Shown piece by piece: positions 1,952 through 14,124 of a stretch of DNA of 14,124 nucleotides. The stretch comes from a bacterium (lineage in GTDB: Bacteria > JALSQH01). Position 1 is the first letter of the stretch; the number at the start of each line of letters is the position of its first letter. The translations under genes and the position numbers were made by a program. Location: positions 1-14,124 of the forward strand of contig JALSQH010000099.1 in NCBI GenBank assembly GCA_026985515.1, given 5' to 3'. Below the pieces are notes generated by a model that was given only the letters and a program-made list of their open reading frames with translations, did no database searches and was not told the DNA's origin.

Positions 1952-2854
1952 ATGGAAGAATTGAGAAAGTATATCCTGCAGTTTGAAGATTATCTGAAAA
2001 TAGAGAGAAATGCCTCTCCCCATACCCTGAGAAATTACACTGCTGATCTGAAGGAATTTGTTGAGTTTCTCGAAAAGGTAAAAGTGAAAAAATGGGAGGA
2101 TGTGGATTTCAGGTTGATCTCCTTTTTCATCAGGGAACTCTACAGAAAAAACAGTAAAAGAACAATTGCAAGAAAGCTCTCCACATTGAGAACTTTTTTT
2201 GATTACCTTATCAGAGAAGAGATTGTAAAAAATAACCCTGCAAGGCTTCTGAGCAATCCCAAACTTGAAAAAAAGATTCCATCTTTTCTAAACATAGAAG
2301 AGGTATTTGCTCTTGTGGAGTCACCTGATGATTCTCCTCTGGGTAAGAGGGACAGGGCAATTATTGAAATGCTTTATGCAACAGGGATGAGGGTCAGTGA
2401 GCTGGTTGGATTAAATATTGAAGATGTGGATTTCAAAAGTGAACTTGTACTTGTAAGGGGTAAGAGAAGAAAGGAAAGGATTGTTCCTCTGGGTAAACCT
2501 GCTCTGGAGGCTTTGAGGAAATACCTGCCTGTTAGAAGGGAGATAATGGAGAGTAATGGTGAGACACACACGGCGCTTTTTGTGAATAACAGGGGCAGAA
2601 GATTGACGGCAAGGAGCGTGGAGAGGATTGTTGATAAGTACATTGTTAAGACGAGCATAATGAGGAAAATTTCTCCTCACGCCTTGAGACATACCTTTGC
2701 CACCCATCTCCTGAATGCTGGCGCAGATTTAAGGACAATTCAGGAGCTACTGGGGCACAGCTCACTTTCCACGACTCAGGTTTACACGCATGTTGAAGTG
2801 GAAAAGTTAATGCAGGTCTATATGAAGTCACATCCGCGGGCAAGGGGTGAATGA
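1952..2854 (+). CDS. xerC: Tyrosine recombinase XerC/XerD
   Basis: This 300-aa site-specific recombinase is expected to resolve chromosome dimers at dif with a Xer partner in the cytoplasm. The N-terminal SAM-like core-binding domain covers about residues 5-90 ([16 protein letters not shown]). The catalytic domain follows with the complete set: R147 ([12 protein letters not shown]), K171 in the beta-hairpin ([13 protein letters not shown]), H243 and R246 ([14 protein letters not shown]), H269 ([11 protein letters not shown]) and nucleophile Y278 (VYTH). The length is typical for Xer proteins, unlike longer phage integrases, and no attachment sites are seen. The position before hslV-hslU matches Bacillus codV (xerC). 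XerC versus XerD cannot be decided from sequence alone. The ATG at 1952 has no obvious Shine-Dalgarno sequence, although the N-terminus aligns with family expectation. Confidence 0.92.
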
Positions 2855-3387
2855 TGGAAAAATTTTACGGTACGACCATAATCGCTATAAAGAGAGATGG
2901 AAAAACAGTCGTTGCAGGTGACGGACAGGTAACAATGGGAAATTCCATCATAAAAGCATCTGCCAGAAAGGTCAGAAGGTTGTATAATGATAAGGTACTG
3001 GCAGGTTTTGCAGGTTCCACGGCTGATGCATTTGCTCTTTTTGAAAAGTTTGAGGGAAAATTGAAGGAGTTCAACGGCAATCTGGTTAAATCGGCAGTGG
3101 AACTGGCCAAGGAGTGGAGGACCAGCAAGATGCTCAGGTATCTGGAGGCTCTTCTCGTTGTGGCAGATAAGGATCATCTTCTCCTGATTTCAGGTACAGG
3201 GGATGTTCTTGAGCCGGATGAGCCTGTAATAGCAATTGGTTCCGGAGGAAATTATGCCCTTGCTGCAGCCAGAGCGCTTTTGACACATACGAACCTATCT
3301 GCAAGGGAAATTGCTCTGGAATCGCTTAAAATTGCATCCGATATCTGCATATACACCAACAGCAACTTTGTGGTGGAGGAATTATAA
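2851..3387 (+). CDS. hslV: ATP-dependent protease subunit HslV (ClpQ)
   Basis: This 178-aa proteolytic subunit of the HslVU (ClpQY) complex is an N-terminal nucleophile hydrolase forming stacked hexameric rings in the cytoplasm. A short propeptide, MMEKFYG, precedes the catalytic Thr8 ([13 protein letters not shown]). In mature numbering D17 (AGDGQVTMG) and K33 ([10 protein letters not shown]) are present. The C-terminus, [15 protein letters not shown], is characteristic and docks into HslU. ATG at 2851 overlaps the xerC stop as ATGA. A second in-frame ATG at 2854 is spaced better (6 nt) from AGGGG at 2843-2847, so the true start may be one codon later. This does not affect the mature enzyme. 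hslU follows after 15 nt. Confidence 0.96.
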
Positions 3388-3402: not shown

Positions 3403-4746
3403 ATGGAGAGAGAAGAAGTTCTTACTCCCAAACAGATAGTTGAGGAGCTGGACAGATACATTGTGGGGCAGAAAGAAGCGAAGAAGGCAGTTGCCATAGC
3501 ATTGAGAAATAGATGGAGAAGGAAGCATGTACCTGAAGAATTGAGAGATGAAATAGTACCCAAAAACATACTCATGATAGGACCAACGGGGGTGGGAAAA
3601 ACTGAAATTGCAAGGAGACTTGCCAAACTTGCGGATGCTCCCTTTATCAAAGTTGAAGCTTCAAAATTCACAGAGGTAGGTTATGTGGGAAGAGATGTTG
3701 AGTCAATCATAAGGGATCTTGTGGAGATAGCGGTGAATCAGGAAAAAGAGGCGGAGAAGAGAAAGGTTTATGAAAAAGCGAAACAGATAGCTGAGGAAAG
3801 GTTACTTGACATTCTCATACCGAGAGTTTCCAGTTACTATCAGGATGATGAGCATGAAAGGACCTACAGGGAAACGAGGGAAAAATTCAGGCAGATGTTG
3901 AGGGAGGGTAAGTTGGATGAGAGGGAAGTGGAAATCACTGTAACTGCCTCGGCGGTTCCGGTAATTGAGGTTTTTTCCGCTTCGGGTATGGAAGAGATGG
4001 GATATCAGATGAAGGACCTGTTTGACGCTTTTCTACCCAAAAAGAAGAAAAAGAGAAGAATGAAGGTAAAGGAGGCTCTCGAGTATCTTGCCCAGGAAGA
4101 GGCTTCAAAGCTCATAGATATGGACAAGGTGACATCAGTGGCACTGCGTAAAGTGGAGGAGAGTGGAATAGTTTTCATAGACGAAATAGACAAGGTGGCG
4201 GGGAGAGAGGGGGATAGAGGTCCCGATGTTTCAAGGGAGGGAGTTCAGAGAGATCTTCTCCCCATTATCGAGGGAACCACCGTTACAACGAAGTATGGAC
4301 TGGTTAAAACTGACCATATCCTGTTTATTGCGGCAGGTGCTTTTCATGTGGCGAAACCTTCTGATCTTATTCCTGAACTGCAGGGTAGATTTCCCATCAG
4401 AGTGGAATTATCTCCTCTCACAAGAGATGATTTTTACAGAATTCTCACCGAACCTGAGAATGCTATAACAAGGCAGTACATTGAATTAATGAAAACGGAG
4501 GATGTGGAACTTGAATTTACCGATGACGCTCTGAGAGAAATTGCAAGGCTGGCTGAGGAAGTCAACCTTAAAAATGAGAATATTGGGGCAAGGAGGCTTT
4601 ACACTGTGGTGGAGAAGCTCCTTGAGGATATTTCCTTCAATGCCCCCGAGCTGAAGGGTCAGAAAATCACCATTACAGGTGAGTATGTAAGAGAAAAGTT
4701 GAAAGATATTGTTGAGAGTGAGGATCTGAGCAGGTATATACTCTGA
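3403..4746 (+). CDS. hslU: ATP-dependent protease ATPase subunit HslU (ClpY)
   Basis: This 447-aa AAA+ unfoldase feeds substrates to HslV. Visible elements are the N-terminal [17 protein letters not shown], Walker A GPTGVGKT (60-67), the pore loop GYVG (93-96), and a long intermediate (I) domain of about residues 110-235 with a basic KKKKKRR run near 213-219. Walker B is IVFIDEID (256-263). Sensor/arginine-finger regions include [11 protein letters not shown] and [18 protein letters not shown]. The C-terminus EDLSRYIL is the tail that inserts into HslV and activates it. The length is close to E. coli HslU. ATG 3403 is preceded by AAGGAGG (3386-3392), so translation is strong and independent of coupling. 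All catalytic parts look intact. Confidence 0.97.
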
Positions 4747-4755
4747 GGGTCTGGA

Positions 4756-5685
4756 ATGAGGATTCTTGTTGTTGATGATGACAGAAATATCCTCAAAGAG
4801 ATTGAGGATTGGGCGAAAACTGAAGGAATTGATTGTGTAGCAGTACCTTCAGGTGTGGATGCCATCAGAATTATGGAAACAGACCCGAACTTTGATCTTG
4901 CCGTTGTTGATCTGATAATGCCCGGATTGCACGGGATAGACACCCTTCAGGGATTAAAAAAAATAAAACTTGATCTTCCAGTTATTCTCATGGCAAATCC
5001 GAGGGAAATGAAGCTGGCTGAAAGGGGGATAAAGGCGGGAGCAGCAGCGATTCTTCCCAAGCCGGTCAGCTTCGAAAAGTTGTCTGAGCTTGTAAGATCC
5101 CTGACAGGGAAGCAGAAAAAGGAAATTGAAGGATGTCTTTTTAATGAAGATACCGTTACCTCCTTTGTAGAACTGCTCCAGATTCTGATTGACACCCCCC
5201 CTGGAGAGGAAATTTTTGAAGTCCTTGCAAGAGAGGTAAGGGAAAAATTTAATCTCACCGGGTTAACTCTCTGGGTACTTTCTAGGGAGAGCAGGAAGTT
5301 AAAGCTTATTTTCCCCTCAGGCGAGGAGGAACTTGATCTTTCCCTGAAGGAAGAGTATCCAGATTTTGTGGAGGGTGAGGAGATAGATAAATACCTGCCC
5401 GGAAGGGGGAGCGAGGATAGATTGCTTTTTTTTATAAAAAAGAGAGGAAGGGTTTTTGCTCTGATGCTTGTTGAAAAGGGGGATGGTTTTCATTCTCTCG
5501 AAGGAGAGTTTGTGGCGAATCTATTTGGTATTGCCGTTAACCTTTACTGGCTTAACGAGAGTCTTACACGAAGCATTGATCTTCAGGCAAAGGCAGAGGC
5601 TGAGGCCGATGAATTGAGGACGAAACTTGCCAGAGCAGTTACTCTGATGGAAAAGCTTAAAAGCAGGATGAAAAAGCAGGATTGA
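4756..5685 (+). CDS. Receiver (REC)-GAF-like-coiled-coil protein with a degenerate receiver
   Basis: This 309-aa protein starts at ATG 4756, with GAGGGT 5 nt upstream, 9 nt after hslU. Residues 1-118 form a response-regulator receiver: acidic pair in LVVDDD (5-9), phosphoacceptor D52 (VVDLIMPGLHG) and Lys102 (LPKPV). The conserved Thr/Ser that follows beta4 is Ala80 (PVILMANPRE), so phosphorylation-driven switching may be altered or absent. Residues about 130-275 resemble a GAF domain: helix FVELLQILID, strands GLTLWVLSRES and RVFALMLVEKG, and a final helix EGEFVANLFGIAVNLYWLNE. The C-terminus (about 276-305) is a charged probable coiled coil with no helix-turn-helix, so direct DNA binding is not indicated. 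GAF is inferred from pattern only. Partner kinase and output are unknown. Confidence 0.8.
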   Translation: MRILVVDDDRNILKEIEDWAKTEGIDCVAVPSGVDAIRIMETDPNFDLAVVDLIMPGLHGIDTLQGLKKIKLDLPVILMANPREMKLAERGIKAGAAAILPKPVSFEKLSELVRSLTGKQKKEIEGCLFNEDTVTSFVELLQILIDTPPGEEIFEVLAREVREKFNLTGLTLWVLSRESRKLKLIFPSGEEELDLSLKEEYPDFVEGEEIDKYLPGRGSEDRLLFFIKKRGRVFALMLVEKGDGFHSLEGEFVANLFGIAVNLYWLNESLTRSIDLQAKAEAEADELRTKLARAVTLMEKLKSRMKKQD

Positions 5686-5688
5686 AAG

Positions 5689-6567
5689 ATGAGAAGGTAC
5701 ATTGAAAAGGCAAATACACTGCTAGAGGCCTTACCTTATATTAAGAAATTCTACGGTAAAACAATCGTGGTCAAATATGGCGGCAACGCAATGGTTGATG
5801 CCGGATTAAAGAGAAGCTTTGCAGATGATATAACACTGCTCAAGTACATAGGTATTAATCCTGTTATAGTGCATGGTGGAGGTCCCCAGATTGGAAAGGT
5901 GATGGAAAAGATGGGTCTTGAAAGCAGATTCTACAGAGGAATGAGAATCACCGATGATGAAACGATGGATGTCGTTGAGATGGTCCTTGTGGGAAAGGTG
6001 AATAAAGAAATTGTGAATTTGATAAATAGAGCGGGGGGAAAGGCCATAGGCTTGAGCGGGAAAGATGGTAACATGATCCTTGCCAGGAAGATAACCTTTG
6101 TGGAGGAAAAGGAAGGCCTGCCACCAGAAATCATTGATATTGGTAAAGTGGGAGAGGTGGAGGAGTTTAATCCAGAAATTCTTGAGGTGCTAGATCAATC
6201 TGGCTTTATCCCAATTATTGCACCCGTTGGTGTGGATAGAGAAGGGGTAACATACAATTTAAACGCAGACATTGTTGCTGCAGAAGTTGCAATGGGTTTG
6301 AAAGCTGAAAAACTAATTTTCCTGACAGATACTGAGGGGGTTAAGGGTAAAGATGGTCAACTTATGAAGAGTCTTAAACCTGAAGAAATAGAGCAGATGG
6401 TTAAAAATGGGGAGATAACGGGCGGAATGATTCCGAAAGTTGAGTGGGGGGTCAGGGCTGTTCAGAGTGGTGTGGAGAAGGTTCATATAATTGATGGCAG
6501 GATTCCGCATTCCCTTATACTGGAACTGTTCACAGATGCAGGAATAGGTACGGAGATAGTGAGATGA
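5689..6567 (+). CDS. argB: Acetylglutamate kinase ArgB
   Basis: This 292-aa enzyme phosphorylates N-acetyl-L-glutamate, the second step of arginine synthesis. Amino-acid-kinase motifs are present: VVKYGGNAM (27-35, Lys29 near the gamma-phosphate), VHGGGPQIG (61-69), [15 protein letters not shown], and the nucleotide-side [12 protein letters not shown] with [14 protein letters not shown]. The N-terminal helix [19 protein letters not shown] and the C-terminal segment ending [18 protein letters not shown] match arginine-sensitive hexameric NAGKs (Thermotoga, Pseudomonas) rather than the arginine-insensitive E. coli dimer. Feedback inhibition by arginine is therefore inferred. The gene begins 3 nt after the receiver gene and overlaps argD by 4 nt. 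Confidence 0.96.
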
Positions 6568-7730
6568 GTTTTCTTCTTCCAACATACAGCAGGTATGGTG
6601 TAAAATTTGTATCGGGTAAGGGCCCTTACCTCTATGATGAGAATGGGAAGGAGTATCTTGATTTCCTTTCAGGAATAGGGGTCAATATTTTTGGATATGC
6701 CTATTCTCCTCTGGTAGAAAAACTAAAAACCCTTGCTGAGAAACCCTGGCATCTGTCCAACTATTTTCAGATAGATTCACAGGAAGAGCTTGCAGGAGAA
6801 ATTGTGAGGTCTCTTTTTCCTGCAAAGGTTTTCTTTTCCAACAGCGGGGCTGAGGCCAATGAAGCTGCTATAAAATTTGCCAGACTGTATGGTAAAAAGA
6901 GGAAGAATGGTGCATATAAAATCCTTGTTGCGGAGAATTCCTTTCATGGAAGAACACTCGCCACCGTTTCAGCAACAGGTCAGGAAAAGGTCCAGAAAGG
7001 TTTTGATCCGCTCTGCCCCGGTTTTGAATTTTTCAAATTCAACGATCTTGCCTCACTTCTTGACAGGGTAAGTGAGGAAGTTGTGGCAGTTATGGTTGAG
7101 CCGATTCAGGGAGAAGGTGGAGTTATACCGGCGGAGGTTGATTTTCTCTACAACCTGAGGCAGGAGACGAGGAAGAGGGGGATACTTCTCATTCTGGACG
7201 AAGTTCAGACGGGTGTTGGGAGAACCGGTGACCTTTACGCTTTTCAGGGATACGGGGTTCAGCCTGATATTTTTACATCAGCAAAGGCACTTGCTGGAGG
7301 ATTGCCAATAGGTGCCACCATTGTGCATGAAGAAATTTCTGATGTTGTTACACCAGGTGTTCATGGTTCCACATTTGGTGGTAATCCCCTTGTTACAGGT
7401 GTGGCCCTTGAAGTTATCAGAAGAGTAAAGGACCCGGAGTTTCTTGCGGGGGTTCGTGAAAAAGGGGAGTATCTAAGGGATAAGTTGCTTCAACTTAAAA
7501 TGAAATTTTCCTTTGTGGAGGAGGTGAGGGGGAGAGGACTTATGTGGGGAATTCTTCTGAAAATCAAATGCGGTGAAATTGTGCAGAGAGCCCTTGAGAG
7601 GGGGTTGATAGTTAACTGTACTGCTGAGAGGGTGGTGAGGCTGCTTCCGCCGCTGATTGTGGAAAAGGGGGAAATAGACAGGGCGGTGTCGATTATTGAG
7701 GAACTATTTCGGGAAATTGAGGAGGATTAG
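6564..7730 (+). CDS. argD: Acetylornithine aminotransferase ArgD
   Basis: This 388-aa class-III PLP aminotransferase converts N-acetylglutamate semialdehyde to N-acetylornithine, using glutamate. Visible features are the PLP phosphate-binding [16 protein letters not shown] (92-107), [15 protein letters not shown] (126-140), VEPIQGEGG (178-186), D212 in [14 protein letters not shown] for the pyridine nitrogen, and Schiff-base Lys241 in [30 protein letters not shown] lies downstream. The length fits bacterial ArgD. ATG 6564 overlaps the argB stop (ATGA), with GGAG at 6552-6555. The substrate-contact stretch reads [13 protein letters not shown]. Context with argB and argF makes ArgD much more likely than a GABA or ornithine transaminase. 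Confidence 0.95.
7719..7726 (+). promoter_or_regulatory. Shine-Dalgarno sequence of argF, inside the end of argD
   Basis: GAGGAGGA lies 5 nt before ATG 7732. It fixes the argF start at 7732 and argues against the in-frame ATG at 7696, which would add 12 basic residues and overlap argD by 35 bp. Confidence 0.75.
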
Positions 7731-7731
7731 G

Positions 7732-8634
7732 ATGAAAAAGGATTTCCTGACACTTTTCAGTCTGGAGAGGGAAGAACTTGAATGGATACTTCAGAGAGCT
7801 TCGCAGTTGAAGAGAGCGAGGCAGGAGGGAAGAATTATAAAGACCCTTGAGGGTAGAACCCTTGTAATGATTTTTGAGAAGCCTTCAACCAGGACGAGGC
7901 TATCCTTTGAAATAGGGATGTACCAGCTGGGTGGTACTGCGGTTTTTATGGGAAAACAGGAGAGCCAGCTTGGCAGGGGGGAAAGTATTGAGGATACGGC
8001 AAGGGTTATATCGAGGTATGCAGATGCCATCATGATAAGGACATTTGGGCAGGAAACAGTTGAAAGACTGGCTCAGTATGCCACCATCCCGGTAGTAAAT
8101 GGATTGACAGATAAGTATCATCCTGTTCAAATTTTGTCAGATGTCTTTACAATTATTGAAAAATTGGGTAAAATTAGTGGGGTAAGAGTGGCGTATCTTG
8201 GTGACGGAAACAATGTGGCCCATTCGCTTATAAATGGAGCCGCTGTTTTTGGATATGAATTGAATGTTGCGACACCTGAAGGTTTTGGACCTGAGAGAGA
8301 AATTGTTGAAAATGCAAGGGAAAGGGGGGGAAAGATAGAGATACTTCATGATCCCTTCACCGCTGTTGAGGGGGCAGAGGTGGTTTATACAGATGTGTGG
8401 GTGTCAATGGGACAGGATAAGTCTGATCTCACCCCCTTTCAGAAATTTCAGGTAAATGGTGAACTTCTGAGAAGAGCCCACGAAAATGTGATGGTTCTTC
8501 ACTGTCTCCCCGCCCATAAGGGAGAGGAGATAGAAGAAAAGGTTTTTGAAGAGCATGCTGAGGAAATATTTACCCAGGCTGAGAACAGATTACATGTGCA
8601 GAAAGCATTGCTGGAGTATTTGATACTGCAATGA
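7732..8634 (+). CDS. argF: Ornithine carbamoyltransferase ArgF
   Basis: This 300-aa enzyme joins carbamoyl phosphate and ornithine to give citrulline. The carbamoyl-phosphate site has EKPSTRTRLSFE (STRTR at 52-56), QLGRGESIEDTARV and HPVQ (130-133). The ornithine side has TDVWVSMGQ (SMG at 225-227) and LHCLPAHKGEE (HCLP at 257-260), which separates it from aspartate and acetylornithine carbamoyltransferases. Two small departures from the commonest motif forms are HPVQ in place of HPCQ/HPTQ and HKGEE in place of HRGEE. The chosen ATG is behind GAGGAGGA, one base after the argD stop. The stop overlaps the J-domain gene by 4 nt. Confidence 0.95.
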   Translation: MKKDFLTLFSLEREELEWILQRASQLKRARQEGRIIKTLEGRTLVMIFEKPSTRTRLSFEIGMYQLGGTAVFMGKQESQLGRGESIEDTARVISRYADAIMIRTFGQETVERLAQYATIPVVNGLTDKYHPVQILSDVFTIIEKLGKISGVRVAYLGDGNNVAHSLINGAAVFGYELNVATPEGFGPEREIVENARERGGKIEILHDPFTAVEGAEVVYTDVWVSMGQDKSDLTPFQKFQVNGELLRRAHENVMVLHCLPAHKGEEIEEKVFEEHAEEIFTQAENRLHVQKALLEYLILQ

Positions 8635-9830
8635 AACTGGATGAAAATAGTTTGAAGGCAAAACCCAGAATAGTTGCGTCAGGTTCCTTGGAGGGTCTGA
8701 CCCTGACTCCGGAGGAAGGGTTTGTTTTGTCTCTGATTGACGGGAAGACCTCCATAGGGGAGATCCTGATGATATCAACTCTTCCACAGGAAAGAACCCT
8801 CGAACTTTTAAAGAAACTCCTTGATTACGGAGTGATCACGCTGGATGATTCAGAGGGGCCAATATCGAAGTGGTGGAGTAAAAGTTCAGGAAAGTCCGAT
8901 AGAAGGTTGGAAAATTCTGATGTTAAAAAAGAGGAAAGAAAGGTTAGTGAAGATTCCATCCCGGAAGAGGTGTTGAGAGATATTGAAAGGATGTATCAGT
9001 TTGTTCAGACGAGAAATTATTATGACATACTCGGATTGCCAAGAAAAGCTTCAAAGGAGGCAATAAGGCAGGCTTACAGATCCCTGTCAAGGAAGTATCA
9101 TCCTGATCAGTACTACCAGAAGGTTTCTCCTGAAACACGGAAGAAACTTGATGTTATTTTTGCAACAATTTCAGAGGCTTATTCAACTCTCAGCAATCCT
9201 GAAATGAGAAGGGAGTATGATGAGGAGCTTGCAACAGGGGTAAAAAAGAGGAAAATAAAAATTGACATTGCTGAGAAAGAAGCGGATACACCGAAGGAGA
9301 AGGCGTACAGATTGATAACTCTGGGTGATGAGGCATATAAGAACAGGGAGTATTCATCAGCTCTGAATAATTATAAACTTGCCAGACAGCTGATTGGTTC
9401 ACTCCCCTCTCTTGACGAGAGAATAAGGAAAGCCCAGATTGCATCCGACTTGAGAAGGATGGTGGAAAAGATTGAGAAAGATGAGATGCTGCTTGAGCTT
9501 GACACTGTTAAAGAGATGGTTTCTCTCGTAAAGGCTAACCTTACACATCTACCTCCGGACCCCGAGCTTCTTGTAAGGGCGGGGAAGATAATGATGAAGA
9601 TGACCAGGGCTTACAGAGTAGCGGCAGAATTGTTTTCAATGGTGAAAAAATATGGAATGTTAAAAAATGATGTGGTTTTTCTTCTTGCTGAGGCCAAAAA
9701 GGAGTCTGGTGATGTGGAGGGTGCGATCAGGGAACTTGAAGAGATCCTCAAGAGAGACAGGAAAAACACAGAGATAAGAGAAAAAATAAGAGAACTGAAA
9801 CTTCTTTTAAAACAGGGCAGTGTGAGGTAG
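8631..9830 (+). CDS. J-domain protein with N-terminal winged-helix-like domain and TPR tail
   Basis: This 399-aa protein is a non-canonical DnaJ (class C). Residues about 20-72 (LTPEEGFVLSLIDGKTSIGE, then a leucine-rich helix and YGVITLDD) form a small helical, winged-helix-like module seen in other Gram-negative multidomain proteins. A charged linker follows. The J-domain covers about 129-198 with NYYDILGLPRKASKEAIRQA, HPD at 157-159, and AYSTLSNPEMRREYDEE. The HPD is needed to stimulate DnaK ATPase. Residues about 222-258 look like a TPR (KAYRLITLGDEAYKNREYSS), with further helical repeats to a Lys/Glu-rich end. The Gly/Phe and zinc regions of true DnaJ are missing. It overlaps argF by 4 nt and is followed after 1 nt by a DnaK paralogue, its probable partner. 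Substrates are unknown. Confidence 0.88.
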   Translation: MKLDENSLKAKPRIVASGSLEGLTLTPEEGFVLSLIDGKTSIGEILMISTLPQERTLELLKKLLDYGVITLDDSEGPISKWWSKSSGKSDRRLENSDVKKEERKVSEDSIPEEVLRDIERMYQFVQTRNYYDILGLPRKASKEAIRQAYRSLSRKYHPDQYYQKVSPETRKKLDVIFATISEAYSTLSNPEMRREYDEELATGVKKRKIKIDIAEKEADTPKEKAYRLITLGDEAYKNREYSSALNNYKLARQLIGSLPSLDERIRKAQIASDLRRMVEKIEKDEMLLELDTVKEMVSLVKANLTHLPPDPELLVRAGKIMMKMTRAYRVAAELFSMVKKYGMLKNDVVFLLAEAKKESGDVEGAIRELEEILKRDRKNTEIREKIRELKLLLKQGSVR

Positions 9831-9831
9831 T

Positions 9832-11412
9832 ATGAGCAGAGCAATTGGTATAGATCTTGGAACGACCAACAGCTGTGTTGCTGTTGTGGAAAGGGGTAAA
9901 CCCGTTGTTATTCCCAACAGCAGCGGATATAGAGTCACTCCATCAATATATGCTGTTACAAAGGATGGTAAAAAACTTGTTGGACACCTTGCCAAAAGAC
10001 AGGCTGTGATGAATCCGGAAAATACAGTTTATGCTTTTAAAAGATTGATTGGCAGGAGATTTGATTCTCCTCAGGTGCAGGAATCAATAAAAAGGTATCC
10101 ATATAAAATAGTGAGGGGACCCAATGATGATGTGAGAATAAAACTGATTGACAGAGAATACACGGTACCTGAAATTGCTGCAATGATTCTGACTGAATTG
10201 AAGTTTATGGCATCAGAATTTCTTGGTGAGGAAGTTGAAAAGGCAGTGATAACAGTTCCTGCCCATTTCAATGATAGTCAGAGACAGGCTACTAAAGATG
10301 CAGGAAGAATAGCGGGCCTTGATGTGATAAGAATAATAAATGAGCCCACCGCAGCTGCCCTTGCCTATGGATATGGCAGGAAGAAAGAGTCTGGTTTAAT
10401 AGCGGTTTATGATCTTGGTGGAGGAACTTTTGATATATCCATTCTTGATTTAAGTGAAGACGTTTATGAAGTTATTGCCACTGCAGGTGATACCTTTTTG
10501 GGAGGAGAGGATTTTGATAAGAGAATAGTGGAGTATCTGATTGCAGAGGGGAAAAAGCAGCTTGGTATAGACCTGTCAAAGGACAAACTTGCCATGCAGC
10601 GCTTGAAGGATGCTGCTGAAAAGGCCAAGATGGAGCTTTCCACATTAATGGAGACCAAGATAACTCTCCCCTTTATTGCCACAGGTCCCTCGGGTCCTCT
10701 GCATCTTGAAGTTATTCTTACAAGGGATCAGCTTGAACAGATGGTACTTGATCTTGTGGAGCAGACACTTGAAATAGTGGAAGAGACATTCAGGGAAAGC
10801 GGTGTTAAAAAAAGCGACATAAAGGATGTTATCCTTGTTGGTGGTCAGACGAGGATGCCCCTTATTCAGAAAAAGGTTGCAGAATTATTCGGGAAGCAGC
10901 TGAGAAAAGGGGTACATCCAGATGAAGTGGTGGCTGTTGGTGCCGCTATTCAGGCAGATATGCTGATGAGAGAGGATAAGGATCTCCTGCTCATAGATGT
11001 TACTCCACTTTCTCTGGGTATCATGACATATGGAGGATATTTTACCAGATTGATTCCCAAAAATACCCCTGTTCCCACCAAAAAGAGTCATATCTTCACG
11101 ACGGTCAAAGATAATCAGAGATCGGTTAAAATAAGTGTTTACCAGGGAGAGAGTGATATTGCGGAGGAAAATGAATTACTCGGTGAATTTGTTCTGACAG
11201 ATATTCCCCCTGCTCCCAGAGGAGTTCCGGAAATTGAAGTAACCTTTTCAATCAATTCAGATGGAATAGTGAGTGTTTCAGCCAGAGATCTTGCAACTGG
11301 AAAGGAGCAATCGATTCAGGTTACCACCAGAAACAGGCTCTCAGAGGAAGAAATTAAGAGAATGAGAGAGTTGAACGAAGAGTATCAGGTTACTCTCAAA
11401 GGAGATAAGTAG
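9832..11412 (+). CDS. DnaK-like Hsp70 chaperone lacking the C-terminal helical lid
   Basis: This 526-aa protein is about 100 residues shorter than standard DnaK. The ATPase domain is complete and keeps E. coli numbering: [11 protein letters not shown] (5-15), K70, P143, R151, E171 and T199 (YDLGGGTFD). Such numbering implies the extra N-lobe segment of Gram-negative DnaKs. The allosteric linker DLLLID (384-389) leads to [13 protein letters not shown] and a full beta-sandwich peptide-binding domain to about 500. Only [18 protein letters not shown] of lid helix A remains, then the chain stops. argG begins 27 nt on, so this is not a recent frameshift. It is probably a specialised paralogue working with the preceding J protein. 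The housekeeping dnaK should lie elsewhere. ATPase function is expected, but stable substrate clamping is doubtful. Confidence 0.93.
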
Positions 11413-11427
11413 TTTTAAAATCCTAAT

Positions 11428-11435
11428 AAGGAGGT
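11428..11435 (+). promoter_or_regulatory. Shine-Dalgarno sequence of argG
   Basis: AAGGAGGT, 4 nt before GTG 11440, supports the GTG start. It lies in the 27-nt gap after the DnaK-like gene, where no terminator hairpin is visible. Confidence 0.75.
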
Positions 11436-11439
11436 CAGA

Positions 11440-12654
11440 GTGAGCGAAGTAAAGAAGGTTGTTCTTGCGTATTCTGGGGGGCTGGATACTTCAGTTATTC
11501 TTGCATGGCTGAAGGAAACTTACAACTGCGAAGTTATAGCTTTTGCTGCTGATCTGGGGCAGAATGAGGATATGGAGGAGATCAGGGAGAAAGCACTTAG
11601 GACCGGAGCAGATAAGGTTTATATTGAGGACCTCAAGGAAGAATTTGTGAGAGATTATGTTTTCCCGATGATGAGGGCAAGTGCCATTTATGAAAACTAT
11701 TATCTTCTTGGAACATCCATTGCAAGACCTCTTATTGCGAAAAAACAGATTGAAATTGCGAGGAAGGAGGGAGCTGATGCGGTGAGTCACGGTGCAACTG
11801 GAAAGGGGAATGATCAGGTACGATTTGAGCTTACATACTACACCTTTGAACCATCCATAAAGGTGATAACTCCATGGAGAATATGGGATTTAAAGAGCAG
11901 ATCTGATCTCATTGACTGGGCAAGGAAAAGGGGCATACCGGTACCTGTTACTAAAGATAAACCATACTCCATGGATAGAAATCTGCTCCACATAAGTTAC
12001 GAGGGTGGAATTCTTGAGGATCCATGGGCAGAGCCTCCGGAGGATATTTTCCAGCTCACAGTCTCGCCTATGGATGCACCCGACGAACCTGAATATGTGG
12101 AAATAGAGTTTGAAAAGGGAAACCCTGTCAAGGTAAATGGGGAGAGACTTTCTCCTGCCGCGTTGCTTGATAAGCTCAACAAAATAGCAGGTAAACATGG
12201 TATAGGAAGGGTGGACATTGTTGAGAACAGATATGTTGGAATGAAGTCGAGGGGAGTTTACGAGACTCCTGGGGGTACCCTTATCTACCATGCACACAGA
12301 GCTCTTGAATCCATAACTCTTGACAGAGAGGTAATGCACTTGAGGGATTCTCTCATCCCCAGGTATTCAGAACTGGTCTACTATGGTTACTGGTTCTCTC
12401 CAGAGAGGGAATCGCTACAGAAGTTCATTGACCATACACAGGAAAATGTGACTGGTACGGTTAGACTCAAGCTTTACAAGGGAAATGTTATTATTGCAGG
12501 GAGAAAATCTCCATACTCCCTTTACAGTCCCGAGTTTGCCACTTTTGAGAGAGAAGAGGTTTACAATCAGGCTGATGCAGAGGGATTTATCAAAATTAAT
12601 TCTCTGAGATTGAGAATAAGGTCACTTCTTGGCCGGAGGGAAGGTGAGGAGTAG
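11440..12654 (+). CDS. argG: Argininosuccinate synthase ArgG
   Basis: This 404-aa enzyme makes argininosuccinate from citrulline, aspartate and ATP, the step after ArgF. The N-terminal ATP pyrophosphatase P-loop AYSGGLDTS (10-18) is intact. Next come [19 protein letters not shown] (about 89-107), [15 protein letters not shown] (116-130) for ATP/aspartate binding, [21 protein letters not shown] for citrulline, and the C-terminal synthetase domain with [19 protein letters not shown]. The length matches the family. Translation starts at GTG 11440 behind AAGGAGGT. The last 11 bp overlap the next gene. argH, which often follows argG, is not adjacent here. Confidence 0.97.
12635..12640 (+). promoter_or_regulatory. 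Shine-Dalgarno sequence of the secreted beta-rich protein, inside argG
   Basis: GGAGGG lies 3 nt before GTG 12644, within the argG coding end. The spacing is short but usable, and this is the only start that places a complete signal peptide at the N-terminus. Confidence 0.55.
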
Positions 12655-14124
12655 TTTACTCCTTTTGCTTTTTCTTCCCTCCCTCCTGATAGGGGGTGAG
12701 GGTTATTTTTCTCCCATTTACAGATGGAGTGGTGGTGTTCTCTGGGGCGAAATAGATAAGTTAAAAATGCCCTCTTTTTATAATTTCACGGGTTTGAGTT
12801 TCTCCTCTGAGAAGAATTTTCCTTTTGTTGGTTACTCTGCCTCTTTTGGTAAAATAAAGTATAGTTTCTGGGCTGGTGAAAGTTACTCCTCCCGGAGCAC
12901 CAGAGTAACTGCGGCTGCAACGGTGCCACAGGATGGTGGATTTCTTTCAGGAGAGAGAGTTGAAAAGGGAAAGGAGGGTACAGGAAGGGGAGAAGTGGGG
13001 GCGAAATTGGGATTGGTCCAGGGGAATGTTTCCCCGGAAGTAATGATTGATTATTCCTATTTTTCCAGAAGTTACCTGCCTTCTTTTGAATTACTTCCTC
13101 CCTGGGAGCTTGATCTACCTGATCCTGTTACTTCTGCTGTTCTTTTCAGGGAAGATGGAGAGGAGATGGGTATTGAAAAGACGCCTGTTGAATCTGGAAA
13201 TCTCGTAGTTCATAACCTCACTGCTGGTCTGGGAATTTTCACAGAGGAGAGTCTGTGGATGGGAATTAAATTTAAGTGGAAGAGGTTGAAACTCAGCGAA
13301 AAAGATCAGATAGCTGAAAGCGGAAGCAATTTTGAATACATTTCTGGGCCAGAGAGGTACTGGAGTTATGACGAATATGGAGTGGGTCTGGGGAGCATCT
13401 TTGAGGGGAAAAATTTCAGGATTCAGGGGGACTTCAGTTATCTGCCAGGATATGATCTCTCCAATTCATTTGATAGGTGGAGGTATTACTACAGGGAGGA
13501 AGTTCCATCAAGTTATGGCAGAGAGTATACAATTTATGATTTGACATTTGAGGATAACTTTTCTGGAAGGGTGGGGAGAGGATTTCTGGGGGAAGTTATT
13601 CTGCTGGTGAAATCCCCTGTACAGGGAAAATTCCTTTTCATTTCAGGAGCTTCCCTTTCCTATTCTCGTTTGAGGGGGAATTACAGGGTCGAGGGTGGAT
13701 TTACCGTGGATTCCCATATTCTCCATAGCACCGGGGAAACAGATGTAAATCCACAGGCAAACTATCTGGAGAAATTTTACGGTGTGAGAAACTACGATGT
13801 TGAGGAGTTCCATGAAGATTTTTCATTCAAACTTCCAGTCATCTTTCAGGGTAGATTTTCAGATATCAACTTTAAAGTAGGTTACATCCTTTCGGGAGAG
13901 TATCGTCATTCTTATATTAAAAGGGAGTTAGCCAGTTTCACTCCATTGAAAATTGTCAGGATAAGTGGGGGAACAACCTATTCGGAAAATAGCAATTTCC
14001 TCCCTCAAACAGAGGGAAAATCTGTTTCTTATATGTTTAACCATGAAGATCTGTTCCTGGGCATGATTGATTATGAGGTGGAGGGTTACTTTGTAAGATT
14101 CTGGCTCTCAACTGATAGTGAAAC
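12644..14124 (+). CDS. Secreted, probably outer-membrane beta-barrel protein (5' part; runs off window)
   Basis: A reading frame from GTG 12644 is open for 493 codons to the window end. It begins [20 protein letters not shown], a Sec signal peptide with one Arg and a leucine-rich core, followed by [20 protein letters not shown]. The rest is rich in aromatic and small residues alternating with polar ones, for example [35 protein letters not shown] and [16 protein letters not shown]. These look like amphipathic beta strands joined by charged loops. I read no cysteine in the visible part. There is no lipobox and no recognisable TonB plug. These traits fit an outer-membrane barrel or surface beta protein of a diderm, but I cannot name a family. 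It overlaps argG by 11 bp and so looks like the next operon gene. Confidence 0.75.

Follow-up and report, generated by a model that had tools for sequence, protein, structure and literature searches.

The gene run around the J protein and DnaK

The window, by which we mean the whole 14,124-nucleotide stretch of DNA that was analyzed, carries a run of genes on one strand in the order xerC-hslV-hslU-regulator-argB-argD-argF-J-DnaK-argG, with no gap larger than 27 nt. The features are summarized in Table 1. The xerC and hslV frames overlap by 4 nt. The TGA stop codon of argF and the start of the J gene share the sequence ATGA (8631-8634), the ATG of the DnaK gene lies one base past the J stop, and argG begins with GTG, preceded by AAGGAGGT. 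A first-pass annotation had pointed to this tight packing (a 4 nt overlap of argF and J, then spacings of 1 nt between J and DnaK and 27 nt between DnaK and argG), and all of its coordinates are exact. For argF we prefer the ATG at 7732 as the start; the listed TTG at 7696 is a mechanical call.

Table 1. Positions of the genes and intergenic features of the run in the window.
Feature	Position	Strand	Basis and remarks
xerC-type tyrosine recombinase, first gene of the run	1952..2854	+	Phage_integrase and SAM-like domains; precedes J in many loci
hslV (ClpQ), HslUV protease subunit	2851..3387	+	ORF; syntenic homologues 49-69% identity
hslU (ClpY), HslUV ATPase	3403..4746	+	ORF; syntenic homologues 52-67% identity
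Response regulator between hslU and argB	4756..5685	+	Response_reg; position kept in several phyla
argB, acetylglutamate kinase	5689..6567	+	TIGR00761 above cut-off
argD, acetylornithine aminotransferase	6564..7730	+	TIGR00707 above cut-off
argF, ornithine carbamoyltransferase	7732..8634	+	TIGR00658 above cut-off
Class C J protein, 399 aa	8631..9830	+	Pfam; AlphaFold model; alignment of 12 homologues
Non-canonical DnaK paralogue, 526 aa, without helical lid and C-terminal tail	9832..11412	+	PF00012; E. coli DnaK alignment; tail length; tree
27-nt gap with argG ribosome-binding site, no terminator-like site	11413..11439	+	Sequence; pattern scan
argG, argininosuccinate synthase	11440..12654	+	TIGR00032 above cut-off
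Terminator-like hairpin at argG stop, candidate transcript end	12646..12664	+	Pattern scan only

The C-terminal part of the response regulator has no assigned domain. Longer regulators of ~460-535 aa occupy the same slot between hslU and argB in other phyla (loci L076, L176-L178, L182 and L184). The gene 3' of argG (12644-14124) has a signal-peptide-like start and runs past the edge of the window. It gave no match in a Pfam search, and may encode an outer-membrane protein.

The window was scanned for regulatory patterns. No terminator-like site on the same strand falls inside the gaps of the run, in a scan whose counts lie near the shuffle level (14 sites found, 10.9 expected). Promoter-like matches were below that level (16 compared with 19.0). 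The CIRCE element of HrcA-controlled heat-shock operons has no match in the window with up to three mismatches allowed, and the six weak matches to ARG boxes, the mark of ArgR control, are at the chance level of 5.0. From the arrangement of the genes, J and DnaK are probably transcribed together with the neighboring run.

Domain structure and lineage of the two chaperones

The J protein has a DnaJ domain at residues 129-197 (Pfam PF00226, 66.7 bits). The HPD motif is intact at 157-159, in agreement with the first-pass annotation, and is invariant in 12 aligned J homologues. Ahead of the J domain lie a winged-helix-like head (residues 1-72) and a disordered linker, and behind it TPR-type helices (221-394). 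The AlphaFold model has a pLDDT of 74, and the N-terminal part (residues 1-72) alone reaches 82. The C-terminal DnaJ domains and zinc finger of class A and B DnaJ proteins are absent; apart from the J domain, Pfam gives only weak TPR matches, and the TIGR02349 score of 61 bits compares with a cut-off of 377 bits. Pfam offers no convincing name for the head domain, a TrmB-like winged helix appearing in just two of the 12 homologues (E = 0.0024). Residues 1-72 were also compared by fold, as a candidate PqqD/RRE-type peptide-binding winged helix. The comparison returned winged-helix chains including MccB, TbiB1 and TruD with Z = 5.6-6.5, and GATOR1 subunits with Z = 8-9; with Foldseek the best E value was 0.045. 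In many loci a TPR protein bearing the same winged-helix-like domain at its C-terminal end is encoded 3' of DnaK (for example L044 3418-4008 and L125 9898-10518). No such protein is encoded in the window.

The DnaK scores 715 bits against PF00012. It does not reach the TIGR02350 equivalog cut-off (764.5 compared with 822.55 bits) and passes that of NF001413 (785.9 compared with 648). Aligned with E. coli DnaK, it can be followed to residue 516, and past position 512 it has just 14 residues; canonical DnaK proteins have 127-133 there, and lid-bearing DnaKs of its own lineage mostly have 83-100. The absence of the lid was overlooked in the first-pass annotation, as was the presence of hslVU and xerC in the same gene run. 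The catalytic residues K70, E171, D194, T199 and D201 are all kept, together with the J-docking residues R167, N170 and T173, D389 of the linker, G32 of the GrpE loop and the pocket valine. The arch residues differ, M404 and A429 of E. coli being replaced by Y and V. A pseudogene is ruled out by the open frame, the catalytic residues and 87% identity over the full length to the homologue in genome G001.

In a tree of 52 sequences a branch with 100/100 support separates the DnaKs of this cluster type from the canonical DnaKs and from a second type. The non-canonical side comprises 25 DnaKs found with the J family, six whose partner is a shorter J protein, and two further paralogues. Lid-free and lid-bearing DnaKs are intermixed within it, some of the inner forks being weak, and the lid would therefore have been lost more than once, or regained. 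Lid-bearing DnaKs of the same lineage (604-610 aa) hold the same gene position elsewhere, indicating that the role does not depend on loss of the lid.

The genome (2.36 Mb, 97.6% complete) contains other DnaK genes. A canonical DnaK of 667 aa is encoded on contig C118, a 585-aa DnaK on C254, and a DnaK-J pair is split over C22 and C241; there is one further weak match. The DnaK of the window is therefore a paralogue, as the first-pass annotation had proposed, and not the only dnaK of the genome. C22 (L040 2582-5112) carries groEL and then the start of a DnaK at the contig end, while C241 (L039 1-1254) opens inside a DnaK that is followed by a 172-aa J protein. The two are probably one groEL-DnaK-J set broken by assembly. 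Pairs of DnaK with a short J protein recur in G041, G059, G060, G160, G188 and G296.

Conservation of the neighborhood and its relation to arginine genes

Profiles of the J family were searched in genomes of many phyla, and loci were chosen by J score and not by context. Upstream neighbors were counted in the 71 loci whose upstream sequence reaches 1.5 kb or more, taking the nearest recognized gene on the same strand; unrecognized genes may therefore intervene. By this measure argF is the upstream neighbor in 26 of the 71, and some member of xerC-hslVU-argBDF in 51. Among all loci argG lies downstream of J in 29. A DnaK is found 3' of J in 64 of the 77 loci with readable downstream sequence, leaving 13 without. 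The argF-J arrangement occurs in at least four phyla, that of the window and those of G041, G296 and G381, and the 4-nt overlap of these genes is shared by the window, L045 and L076 (two phyla).

In the family of the window, G001 has J-DnaK-argG. Its argG (L037 5457-6682) is broken into two overlapping frames by a frameshift or sequencing error. In another phylum G041 and G060 have argF-J-DnaK, the latter with hslU-regulator-argB-argD ahead, and L076 reads hslU-regulator-argB-argD-argF-J-DnaK. In a third phylum, represented by G021 and six relatives, the order is J-DnaK-TPR-argG, continuing with MreB- and MreC-like genes where the sequence is readable. The J family is present in 109 of 187 genomes of the phylum of G381, which has large genomes and is perhaps Myxococcota, and many of these have the full order through argG. 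Loci L125 and L174 read xerC-hslV-hslU-argB-argD-argF-J-DnaK-TPR-argG, and a window-like order is also seen at L176, L178, L182, L184, L248, L254, L260 and others. In the phylum of G296 and G160 the gene behind the argF-linked J encodes a HEAT-repeat protein and not DnaK (L121 4214-4792, L123 7990-8568). DnaKs are present elsewhere in the genome in that phylum.

J-DnaK is genuinely linked to arg genes, and the linkage is conserved. The argF-J-DnaK-argG order that the first-pass annotation had suggested looking for in other genomes recurs across phyla and is not peculiar to this one. Misassembly is ruled out by the identical order in the relative G001 and in other phyla. A literature search for linkage between arg, hslVU, J and DnaK genes found no paper describing it, and the arrangement has been little noticed.

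Such linkage might mean that the pair folds or assembles ArgF and ArgG, or tunes the pathway, and is co-expressed with it for that reason. The frequency of argF and argG as neighbors in several phyla and the translational overlap with argF in two of them are as expected on this basis. Yet in 17 loci no arg gene is present and J lies behind hslU or xerC, directly behind hslU in L122, L180, L189, L191 and L244, and behind xerC alone in L234, L236, L237, L240-L242 and others. Moreover, no argG scored over the TIGR00032 cut-off, which was positive in 14 of 14 control genomes, in G188, G577, G579, G539, G569 and G101 (92-100% complete), and all six retain J-DnaK. The same search found none over the cut-off in G424, where only J was seen, or in G393 (79% complete). 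Retention of the pair where the pathway has been lost argues that J-DnaK has a function of its own, and in most bacteria the arginine enzymes fold without such a pair. We consider a role in folding or tuning these enzymes very improbable. J-DnaK is probably not dedicated to arginine, and the link as observed is one of position, perhaps also of expression.

The first-pass annotation had envisaged either co-expression with the arginine enzymes or a wider state of growth or proteostasis. The loci without arg genes and the genomes without argG speak against a tie to the arginine enzymes as such, and the wider option gains weight because hslV-hslU, which encodes a heat-shock protease in E. coli, shares the gene run. 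The J protein and the lidless Hsp70 might pass clients to the HslUV encoded upstream. In many loci xerC-hslV-hslU lies ahead of the pair, and the five loci with J directly behind hslU fit well with such a partnership, but in 12 loci J lies behind xerC with no hslVU nearby, and several of these also lack DnaK. We know of no established handover from a J/Hsp70 pair to HslUV, and regard this explanation as unlikely.

Proposed role and comparison with known systems

Complex bacteria often have additional Hsp70s, and clients have been assigned to few of them. We favor the view, with a probability of roughly 0.6, that J-DnaK is an accessory Hsp40/Hsp70 machine whose Hsp70 belongs to a non-canonical lineage, located in an old xerC-hslVU-argBDF-J-DnaK-argG neighborhood and not dedicated to arginine. 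The TPR-type solenoid and the winged-helix-like head of the J protein would serve to select or hold partners, and the J domain would trigger ATP hydrolysis in the non-canonical Hsp70. Lacking a lid, the latter would be expected to bind clients briefly, or to bind partners that are already folded, and not to trap unfolded chains. Probable transcription with the neighborhood would make the level of the pair track growth and not heat shock, and the pair would have been kept in several lineages after the arg genes left the neighborhood or the genome.

A bolder proposal, possible yet clearly tentative, is that a deeply conserved superoperon unites the recombinase, HslUV, arginine synthesis and a dedicated lid-free Hsp40/Hsp70 machine. 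The winged-helix-J-TPR protein and its non-canonical Hsp70 lineage would then be a distinct chaperone system with a client class of its own. It might, for instance, pass native proteins on to HslUV or gate a response to growth or starvation. The neighborhood persists across phyla, its DnaK slot is occupied by versions with and without a lid, and arg and hslVU genes have been naturally lost from around the pair. It thus provides a clean comparative system for the role and clients of a lidless Hsp70.

The pair shares with the canonical DnaK-DnaJ-GrpE system the nucleotide-binding domain, linker, beta substrate domain, HPD-containing J domain and J-docking residues. The DnaK differs from canonical DnaK in having neither lid nor tail and in its separate lineage, the J protein differs from class A proteins in lacking the G/F and zinc-finger organization, and the two lie outside any dnaK-dnaJ-grpE setting. 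They resemble the yeast ribosome-associated complex Zuo1-Ssz1, where the dedicated partner of a J protein is an atypical Hsp70. Ssz1 is not known to cycle as an active ATPase, whereas no ribosome-binding feature was seen in the window pair and its DnaK has all the tested catalytic residues.

The pair might alternatively act in signaling, with the Hsp70 regulating the envelope, motility or a stress regulator, or forming a stable complex of the Zuo1-Ssz1 kind. Ssz1 is indeed a non-canonical Hsp70 with a J-protein partner (PMC7083937), and the conserved run includes a response regulator. In Myxococcus xanthus StkA (MXAN_3474), which at 540 aa is short and non-canonical like the window DnaK, shows no heat induction and controls exopolysaccharide (PMC4319316). 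However, the genes behind StkA are stkB (lipid-transfer-like) and stkC (PhaE-like), whereas the window DnaK lies amid arg and hsl genes. The full retention of catalytic and J-docking residues favors a cycling chaperone, and no regulated target is known. A signaling function thus seems distinctly unlikely.

From their description and locus tags, MXAN_3015 and MXAN_3016 of M. xanthus are likely the experimental counterpart of the window pair. They too are a J protein and an Hsp70 with consecutive locus tags, from which their adjacency is inferred. Like the window DnaK, MXAN_3016, which is annotated as DnaK, falls outside the canonical PRK00290 group and lacks the C-terminal tail; it is not the heat-induced copy, as would also be expected of the window DnaK. 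The shortened lid in M. xanthus, in contrast, is reported for MXAN_2747 and not for MXAN_3016. Deletion of MXAN_3016 lowers peroxide resistance and sporulation, and the protein is not induced by heat and cannot replace E. coli dnaK (PMC8265645). The first-pass annotation had taken adjacency as evidence that J protein and Hsp70 work together, but the 13 loci without DnaK and the binding of MXAN_3015 to the canonical MxDnaK1 (PMC11019930) warn against assuming an exclusive pair. The J protein of the window type may therefore serve other Hsp70s as well.
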